Assembly: GCF_002688585.1 (NCBI RefSeq)
Contig: NZ_CP024034.1
Coordinates: 983,501 to 1,047,500 of the forward strand
Source of the DNA: Candidatus Fonsibacter ubiquis
GTDB taxonomy: Bacteria; Pseudomonadota; Alphaproteobacteria; Pelagibacterales; Pelagibacteraceae
Reading direction: 5' to 3'
Length of the DNA: 64,000 nucleotides
Below the pieces are notes generated by a model. It was not told the origin of the DNA. It did no database searches and worked only from the letters and a program-made list of their open reading frames with translations. The first letter of the stretch is position 1. Each line of letters starts with the position of its first letter. Positions 7,925-58,006 of this stretch are shown here, piece after piece. The position numbers and the translations under genes are program-made.

Positions 7925-8731
7925 ATGGAATTTTTGAAAAAAATAATTAAAAGTAAAAAATCAGAAAATAAAAAAAAAGAACCAACTATAAAAAAAAATA
8001 AAAAAATTAAATTAGAAAAAAAACCCTTAAAAAAAGAAATTCCTAAAAAAGAAAAGCCACCAATTGAAATCAAGCCTAAAGGAAAACGTGGAAGACCTAA
8101 AAACCCAGAAACAAAAAAGATTACCCAACAGCCTGCCGCCGAACAAAAACCATTAACTGCGTCTCAACAAAATGCAGCAGCTGAAATTGTAATTACCAAA
8201 GTTGCAAAACAAGAGTCTGATAAGAAAATTTATAAAATTAAAGATTACGTTATTTATCCAAAGCATGGTGTAGGTCAAATTGTTGCCATTGAAAACAGCG
8301 TCATAGCAGATATCGAAATGACTTATTACAAAATTCAAGTAACTAAAGATAAATTGATTTTAACAATTCCTGTTAATCAACAAGGCAACTTGAGACCTAT
8401 ATCAAGTGTCAATCAGATTAATAAAGCAATATCTATATTAAAAGGAAAACCAAAAATTAGAAGAACAATGTGGAGTAGAAGAGCACAAGAATATGACCAA
8501 AAAATTAACTCTGGGGAAATCTATCAAATTGCTGAAGTTGTAAGAGATTTAAATAAAAATACTGAAATTCCAGTTGATCAATCTTATAGTGAAAGACAAT
8601 TATTCGAAAAAGCATATGACCGTCTATTAGGTGAAGTGGCAATAGGAATGCAACTTAGTAATGAGGACGCTAAAAAGAAATTGGATAAGGCTCTAGGTAA
8701 AAAAGAAACTGTAACTGCAGAGCCTATATAA
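7925..8731 (+). CDS. carD: CarD/CdnL-family RNA polymerase-binding regulator with AT-hook-like N-terminus
   Basis: CarD/CdnL proteins bind the RNA polymerase beta subunit and stabilise open promoter complexes, often at rRNA and other strong promoters. Residues about 101-260 form the CarD domain, beginning IYKIKDYVIYPKHGVGQI. The first ~100 residues are extremely Lys/Pro-rich and include KRGRPKNP (54-61), which matches the GRP core of an AT-hook. Ordinary CdnL proteins are about 160-170 residues; this one is 268 because of that extension. A strong terminator follows the stop. Confidence 0.88.
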   Translation: MEFLKKIIKSKKSENKKKEPTIKKNKKIKLEKKPLKKEIPKKEKPPIEIKPKGKRGRPKNPETKKITQQPAAEQKPLTASQQNAAAEIVITKVAKQESDKKIYKIKDYVIYPKHGVGQIVAIENSVIADIEMTYYKIQVTKDKLILTIPVNQQGNLRPISSVNQINKAISILKGKPKIRRTMWSRRAQEYDQKINSGEIYQIAEVVRDLNKNTEIPVDQSYSERQLFEKAYDRLLGEVAIGMQLSNEDAKKKLDKALGKKETVTAEPI

Positions 8732-8768
8732 AAAAAACGCCCTTCAAAAAATTTGAAGAGCGTTTTTC
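8732..8768. terminator. bidirectional intrinsic terminator
   Basis: The inverted repeat AAACGC-C-CTTCAAA / TTTGAAG-A-GCGTTT encloses a three-base loop, with an A-run on the left and a T-run on the right. It can therefore end transcription of carD on the + strand and of the 31-codon basic gene (stop at 8785) on the - strand. This is one of the few clear intrinsic terminators in the window. Confidence 0.88.
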
Positions 8769-8784
8769 TTGAAAACTCAAAAAA

Positions 8785-8880
8785 CTATCTTCTTCTTTTT
8801 TTTGCTTTCTTTGCTGGCTTTCTTCTAGAAGCTTTTCTCTTCTTAGAAGTTTTCTTAGCTTTTTTTCTTTTTTTAGCCAT
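8785..8880 (-). CDS. 31-residue Lys/Arg-rich histone-like peptide
   Basis: An ORF of 31 codons begins with MAKKRKKAKK and ends with KKAKKRRR; 14 lysines and 7 arginines make up 21 of 31 residues, with Ala, Ser, Thr and a single Pro. A good ribosome-binding site (GGGAG, revcomp 8887-8891) lies 6 bases before the ATG, and a terminator lies just past the stop, so it is a complete small transcription unit. The composition resembles the tails of H1-like proteins and suggests nucleic-acid binding; this is inference. It is convergent with carD. Confidence 0.72.
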   Translation of the reverse strand: MAKKRKKAKKTSKKRKASRRKPAKKAKKRRR

Positions 8881-8903
8881 TTTTTTCTCCCGTTACGTTA
8901 ATG

Positions 8904-8926
8904 ATCACTTAAATAATTTAAGTGAT
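8904..8926. promoter_or_regulatory. 23-bp perfect palindrome upstream of the basic peptide gene
   Basis: ATCACTTAAAT and ATTTAAGTGAT are perfect 11-bp inverted repeats around one central base. The site ends 24 bases before the start codon of the 31-residue basic peptide. There is no T-run on either side, so it is not a terminator. It could be an operator for a dimeric regulator or a hairpin in the 5' leader of the mRNA. Confidence 0.5.
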
Positions 8927-9094
8927 TCGCATTATCAAATACTTAAAAACATATCGTTTACTAAGTCAAATTGTTATTTTTTCAAAAAAATTTTGAATTG
9001 AGTCTAAAATTTTTTTTTGATTCAAATTTTATTGGTTTACAATAGTTTTTTGATATTTTTTTTAAATTATAAATCATTTATATTTTACTAAATT

Positions 9095-9171
9095 GCACTC
9101 GTAGCTCAGCTGGATAGAGTACAAGTTTCCTAAACTTGGTGTCAGAAGTTCGAATCTTCTCGAGTGCACCA
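9095..9171 (+). tRNA. tRNA-Arg (anticodon CCT)
   Basis: Complete cloverleaf of 77 bases. The acceptor strands GCACTCG (9095-9101) and CGAGTGC (9161-9167) pair fully and the CCA end is encoded. The anticodon stem CAAGT/ACTTG holds the loop TTCCTAA, giving anticodon CCT, which reads AGG. The T-arm is AGAAG/CTTCT around TTCGAAT. It ends 3 bases from the convergent acyl-CoA synthetase stop. Confidence 0.95.
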
Positions 9172-57906: not shown

Positions 57907-57928
57907 TTTTTTTCTCCAGCAGCAATCG

Positions 57929-58006
57929 CACTAGTGGGCGAATATCGCTGACTAGTGTTGATCTCCTTCATTAGAAGGACACCACAAAACCTGCTTATTT
58001 TTGTGG
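57929..58006 (-). promoter_or_regulatory. structured 5' leader of ffh with three hairpins
   Basis: Read on the - strand, the region between the promoter and ffh holds three hairpins in a row: CCACAAAA/TTTTGTGG (57982-58006), TCCTTC/GAAGGA with a 4-base loop (57964-57979), and CACTAGT/ACTAGTG with an inner GCGA/TCGC helix (57929-57957). None is followed by a T-run. The density of perfect pairing in an otherwise very short-leader genome suggests a regulatory RNA or ribosomal-type autoregulation. It lacks the SRP RNA core, so it is not 4.5S RNA. Confidence 0.6.

Follow-up and report, generated by a model that had tools for sequence, protein, structure and literature searches.

We identified, in a 64,000-nucleotide stretch of the Candidatus Fonsibacter ubiquis genome (the window; the host genome is a single contig of 1,160,202 bases), a gene for a 31-residue lysine- and arginine-rich protein that, judged from genome sequences, is a single-copy gene at one place in essentially every SAR11 genome examined. 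Comparison of its orthologues confirms that the ORF is a selected protein-coding gene, with conservation far beyond chance; we read its product, with slightly better than an even chance, as an H1/protamine-like polycation that probably belongs to the nucleoid and is expressed from a strong, perhaps methylation-sensitive, promoter. SAR11 bacteria, of which Ca. Fonsibacter is a freshwater member, rank with the most abundant cells on Earth, and their genomes are highly streamlined; they nevertheless keep this single-copy gene order-wide at one place, with a product that is recognised by no model of Pfam or NCBIfam. A polycation that is universal and probably expressed at a high level would bear on DNA packing or ribosome building in very small cells, and the invariant GANTC-plus-hairpin leader of the gene is a concrete lead on CcrM/GcrA control in SAR11.

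The features of the locus are collected in Table 1. The ORF begins with ATG (8880-8878) and stops with TAG (8787-8785), and is exactly the 31-codon gene with 21 Lys/Arg residues that a preliminary description of this DNA had proposed; the GGGAG ribosome-binding site at six bases and the shared terminator were also as described there, the latter being a near-perfect inverted repeat with T runs in both directions. The conserved promoter, the GANTC site and the hairpin are new relative to that description, which covered the ORF, the ribosome-binding site and the terminator. After the initial Met, the product (MAKKRKKAKKTSKKRKASRRKPAKKAKKRRR; Lys/Arg at 21 of 31 residues) is composed of K, R, A, S, T and P. 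The 31-residue protein has no domain and no Pfam or NCBIfam family match, and short and long (sister-family) forms alike gave no match to these models above cut-off; a phmmer search of PDB chains, which scores low-complexity queries poorly, returned no sequence match at E<=10. AlphaFold2 predicted helices at residues 2-19 and 24-30 (mean pLDDT 76, pTM 0.30), a model that says little past helix tendency.

Table 1. Features of the basic-protein locus (window positions).
Feature	Position	Strand	Basis
Lys/Arg-rich protein gene, product MAKKRKKAKKTSKKRKASRRKPAKKAKKRRR	8785..8880	minus	ORF; orthologues; dN/dS
Shine-Dalgarno GGGAG, 6 nt before ATG	8887..8891	minus	sequence; conserved in relatives
5' leader hairpin ATCACTTAAA-TTA-TTTAAGTGAT	8904..8926	minus	inverted repeat, 100% complementary
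CGAATCA element containing CcrM site GAATC (GANTC)	8923..8929	minus	conserved across loci
Inferred -10 region TTAAGT	8941..8946	minus	17-nt spacing to TTGAC; column conservation
-35-like TTGAC	8965..8969	minus	conserved across loci
carD (CdnL/CarD family, 268 aa), convergent neighbour, synteny anchor	7925..8731	plus	Pfam
Bidirectional terminator common to basic-protein gene and carD	8730..8770	both	inverted repeat, orthologous stems
tRNA-Arg (CCT), divergent upstream neighbour	9095..9171	plus	ARAGORN, Rfam

We utilized carD as a synteny anchor and sought basic ORFs beside it in the collected Pelagibacteraceae loci, to which the sister family was added. An orthologue in the same position, convergent with carD, was found at 112 distinct Pelagibacterales loci with full flanks, from two families, and no carD locus of the order with sufficient flanking sequence was without one. 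Loci that gave no match either were truncated, the contig ending inside the ORF or no more than ~135 bases from the carD match, or had a GTG start (L009 and L039) or a MATRRK reading (L027 and L048). The orthologues at the 112 loci are 20-99 aa long; their start is near-fixed (M-A/P-K-K/R-R-K-K-A-K-K) and their end rich in K/R. Those of the sister family (L150-L161) are longer, at 40-99 aa, and H1-like, with AAPKK repeats (for example, MEELKVIFAKARKKAKKKAAPKKK...). Beside carD in 28 other alphaproteobacterial loci, no equivalent gene was seen.

Synteny and patterns were used because low-complexity queries fail in peptide search: a direct search of 142 alphaproteobacteria had one SAR11 relative as its sole match and missed the window's own copy. 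Two whole-genome pattern searches, both independent of carD, matched in 87 and 109 of 297 genomes, with at most one copy per genome and no match for the reversed-pattern controls. We also checked 20 extra carD-adjacent regions: 14 where the genome had given no pattern match, one where it had, and five belonging to genera or genomes outside the samples searched. The gene is intact in 19 of the 20. Apparent absence from many genomes is ruled out, since all 14 unmatched genomes checked at carD have an intact copy; the patterns missed them because their copies start with MPK or MATK and the patterns required MAK. The sole frame break seen is in L264 (G006; minus strand, 186-121), which has an A8 run near the end and the conserved RRRR-stop put out of frame; with a genome completeness of 83%, the break may be an assembly error. 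Frame-breaking changes in relatives, the observation that the preliminary description had set against its own proposal, thus come to this one case, and the frame is kept in more than 130 copies.

For the codon analysis we took 75 distinct short-type coding sequences, which together have about 1,970 codons (1,026 Lys, 485 Arg and 342 Ala among them) and not a single one for Asp or Glu. Base use follows the reading frame, with C making up 22% of second, 2% of first and 0.4% of third positions, and T 19.5% of third positions and at most 1% elsewhere. Among the commonest differences between orthologues are K-R exchanges and, at codons for Lys, Arg and Ala, synonymous changes; Ala-Lys differences are likewise common. 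Pooled pairwise dN/dS in frame is 0.32 (also 0.32 within the Fonsibacter relatives), whereas the two shifted frames give a nonsynonymous/synonymous ratio of 1.02 and of 0.44; these values are descriptive rather than independent tests, because pairs share ancestry. Codon periodicity, the lack of Asp/Glu codons and the dN/dS value therefore indicate a translated gene. A GGAG-containing site precedes the ATG in 111 of the 112 loci, mostly as (A)GGGAG at 5-8 nt. Two of the checks suggested in the preliminary description, dN/dS and conservation of the Shine-Dalgarno site, hence came out on the side of the gene, the former as purifying selection, and its claim of a real small basic gene is strongly supported by the order-wide frame, the Shine-Dalgarno site and the terminator, with no Pfam or NCBIfam family to its name. 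A chance reading frame arising from purine-rich DNA, or a non-coding or antisense RNA as the conserved item, has a probability close to nil: the coding strand is A/G-rich and one frameshifted copy exists (L264), but the frame kept in all those other copies, the strong codon-position asymmetry without acidic codons, the dN/dS of 0.32 and a Shine-Dalgarno site at a near-fixed distance argue against it.

The gene has no partner gene in its own transcript. The two arms of the terminator (8730-8748 and 8752-8770) are 89% complementary with T runs both ways, and orthologous loci have a similar stem; the structure was missing from a simple scanner's output and was found as an inverted repeat. A leader or stalling peptide for a downstream gene was considered and ruled out: the ORF ends at the terminator that it has in common with the convergent carD, and such a role is unlikely because nothing lies downstream of the ORF before it. 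The carD product matches CarD_C (1.2e-20) and CarD_TRCF_RID (3.8e-12) in Pfam, and carries a Lys-rich N-terminal tail of ~95 residues (window 7925-8210) before the CarD domains. The tRNA-Arg (CCT) gene is found upstream in some related loci and is missing from others.

Upstream of the gene, TTGAC is followed by CGAATC 37-42 nt later in 112 of 112 loci (39-41 in 109 of them), and both TTGAC and CGAATCA are invariant in all 50 non-redundant leaders, whose adjoining columns vary; one CGAATCG variant occurs among the 20 extra regions. The putative transcription start was placed upstream of CGAATC because of the position of the -35 element, and would lie a few bases before it. CGAATC begins or borders the hairpin, which folds better than its dinucleotide shuffles (z -4.75 in the window), as do all 50 non-redundant leaders (mean z -4.65). 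Across the clade III leaders, 95.4% of cells pair, compared with 25-39% in slid versions, and both-sided changes in the hairpin number six, where shuffles average 2.1; this comparison is not a probability because the rows are related. In other clades the pairing register is shifted to CGAATC/GATTYG. Some clade III leaders (L014, L015, L021 and L022) carry CTCC upstream of the GGAG Shine-Dalgarno site (for example, CTCCAAAAACAAAAAGGAG), with which it could pair; a translational switch of this kind is possible there, and is absent from the window's own leader. Some clade I leaders (L055, L079 and L093 among them) contain a second GAATC directly after TTGAC (TTGACATGAATC), between -35 and -10, a feature of some relatives and not all. 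The leader element as a regulon-wide operator was rejected: there is no other clear copy in the host genome, where matches with one or two mismatches are not above the reversed control. A search of 240 alphaproteobacterial genomes gave three scattered matches only.

CGAATC contains GANTC, the CcrM site, at 112 of 112 loci, and this genome encodes both CcrM (L214; NCBIfam NF050803 at 7.2e-172, below the model's strict cut-off, with a RAMA domain) and GcrA (L194; Pfam PF07750 at 6.5e-36); a CcrM homologue is present in SAR11 genomes (PMC3973325). GANTC occurs 108 times in the window versus 168 expected, and some other palindromes are also below expectation. At 48 loci compared over 5 kb to each side, no GANTC but that of the leader occurs throughout (48/48); the next most conserved, ~1.9 kb off and in 98% of loci, coincides with the position of a tRNA-Leu gene. 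In Caulobacter, the promoters that are switched on at 40-60 minutes carry GANTC between -35 and -10 (PMC4287350). The extended motif YGAKTCG is reported in a comparative study for GcrA-activated promoters of Caulobacter, and reported as missing from Brevundimonas (PMC7987155); read as its reverse complement, this motif accommodates CGAATCA. Like the Caulobacter GcrA/CcrM promoters, the SAR11 leader combines GANTC, here invariant, with a putative sigma70-type promoter (PMC7987155, PMC4287350); unlike them, it has the GANTC past the inferred -10 and as part of a hairpin, not between -35 and -10 as in the 40-60 minute group. With GANTC in this downstream position, activation by GcrA as in Caulobacter cannot be taken as given. 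The comparative study found few conserved SAR11 genes with a high probability of GcrA regulation (PMC7987155).

Alternatively, and with somewhat less than an even chance, CGAATCA and the hairpin act in the mRNA, as a 5' stabiliser or a site of autoregulation by the peptide, and not as a CcrM/GcrA DNA site; this concerns regulation only and is compatible with any protein function proposed here. The hairpin loop varies in length with the pairing kept, G-U pairs are used (the GATTTG arm), T-A/A-T swaps are compensated, the element sits at the inferred 5' end of the transcript, and the clade III CTCC could pair with the Shine-Dalgarno site. However, pairing alone does not explain CGAATC, because it does not vary even in clade III, where its first bases are unpaired, or where its partner arm varies. 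The variable loop with kept pairing points to an RNA role as well, and DNA-site and RNA roles may both apply.

The conserved property of the protein is dense positive charge between the near-fixed start and the K/R-rich end, and its sequence suggests that it most likely coats DNA or RNA. The peptide would be a minimal member of a family whose longer, sister-family forms resemble histone-H1 tails; it would neutralise charge, bind DNA electrostatically and help nucleoid compaction. Transcription would be driven by a strong promoter of the sigma70 type, with a GANTC open to CcrM methylation in its start region and possible coupling to replication via GcrA, and the mRNA would begin with a protective or regulatory hairpin. 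The large length change at one locus and the AAPKK repeats of the sister family favour a disordered H1-like binder over a fitted ribosomal part; a nucleoid role is favoured, at about an even chance, with a ribosome or rRNA role second. Of the two functions offered in the preliminary description, the H1-like nucleoid peptide is thus the one favoured by the repeats and by the tolerance of 20-99 residues, and the rRNA-binding peptide becomes its main rival.

Tiny basic ribosomal proteins such as eL41, bTHX and bS22/mS38 have near-fixed length and sequence; the SAR11 peptide is like them in size, charge and predicted helix, and unlike them in that its length and sequence drift widely. It is rather unlikely that the peptide is a small ribosomal or rRNA-binding protein of this sort, acting as a short basic helix that threads into rRNA in the manner of eL41, bTHX or mycobacterial bS22. 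Most Pelagibacteraceae copies do have 20-31 residues and an Arg-rich end, helix 2-19 is predicted (mean pLDDT 76), the single strong promoter is constitutive in appearance, and the neighbour carD, which activates rRNA transcription, would offer a thematic link, CdnL affecting rRNA transcription in Caulobacter (PMC5324124), although convergent neighbours need not have a common function. The near-constant length and residues expected of a small basic ribosomal protein were not found, since copies at a single locus span 20-99 aa, about a fivefold range, and contain low-complexity repeats, and no PDB chain matched in sequence, though phmmer is weak on such sequences.

Bacterial histone-H1-like proteins include chlamydial Hc1 and Hc2, and the H1-like traits of Lys/Ala/Pro-rich low complexity and variable repeats are seen in the sister family (40-99 aa); against the nucleoid reading, the short forms are without the proline-containing repeats of H1 tails. 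Protamines are very short, roughly 65-85% Lys/Arg, and without acidic residues, and so are the short SAR11 forms; unlike protamines, the SAR11 protein is bacterial, Lys-dominated and in growing cells, and no sequence relationship is claimed. Lys/Arg-rich peptides bind RNA and polyphosphate besides DNA. With Pseudomonas AlgP/AlgR3 and PhaF the SAR11 protein has in common a low-complexity Lys/Ala(/Pro) composition, and the AAPKK repeats and length variation of the sister family resemble the KPAA repeats of AlgP; it differs from the H1-like proteins in having no folded domain, in its 20-41 residues in most SAR11, in being more Arg-rich, and in being recognised by no Pfam or NCBIfam model. AlgP and similar lysine/alanine-rich H1-like tails bind DNA, and AlgP is also found on polyphosphate granules (PMC9239181). 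The latter association, together with charge being the main conserved property, would suit a peptide whose charge serves to neutralise a different polyanion (polyphosphate, for instance) or to stand in partly for polyamines, with no specific nucleoid organising; we consider this very unlikely, since no polyphosphate or polyamine metabolism gene is at the locus and AlgP has a folded N-terminal domain, which the SAR11 protein is without.

Taking the nucleoid reading further, SAR11 might share one dedicated protamine-like nucleoid protein, kept universally, whose synthesis is tied to replication through a hemimethylation-sensitive GANTC at the transcript start; we regard this as quite unlikely, but if true, a minimal free-living cell would make a charge-neutralising chromatin protein as each chromosome copy passes. 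No earlier description of the protein was found in the open-licence papers searched, which included the main table of a 2009 survey of SAR11 structured RNAs. One SAR11 structured RNA described in 2009, the ffh sRNA motif (RF01793), lies elsewhere in the window (57921-57972, minus strand), above its gathering score.
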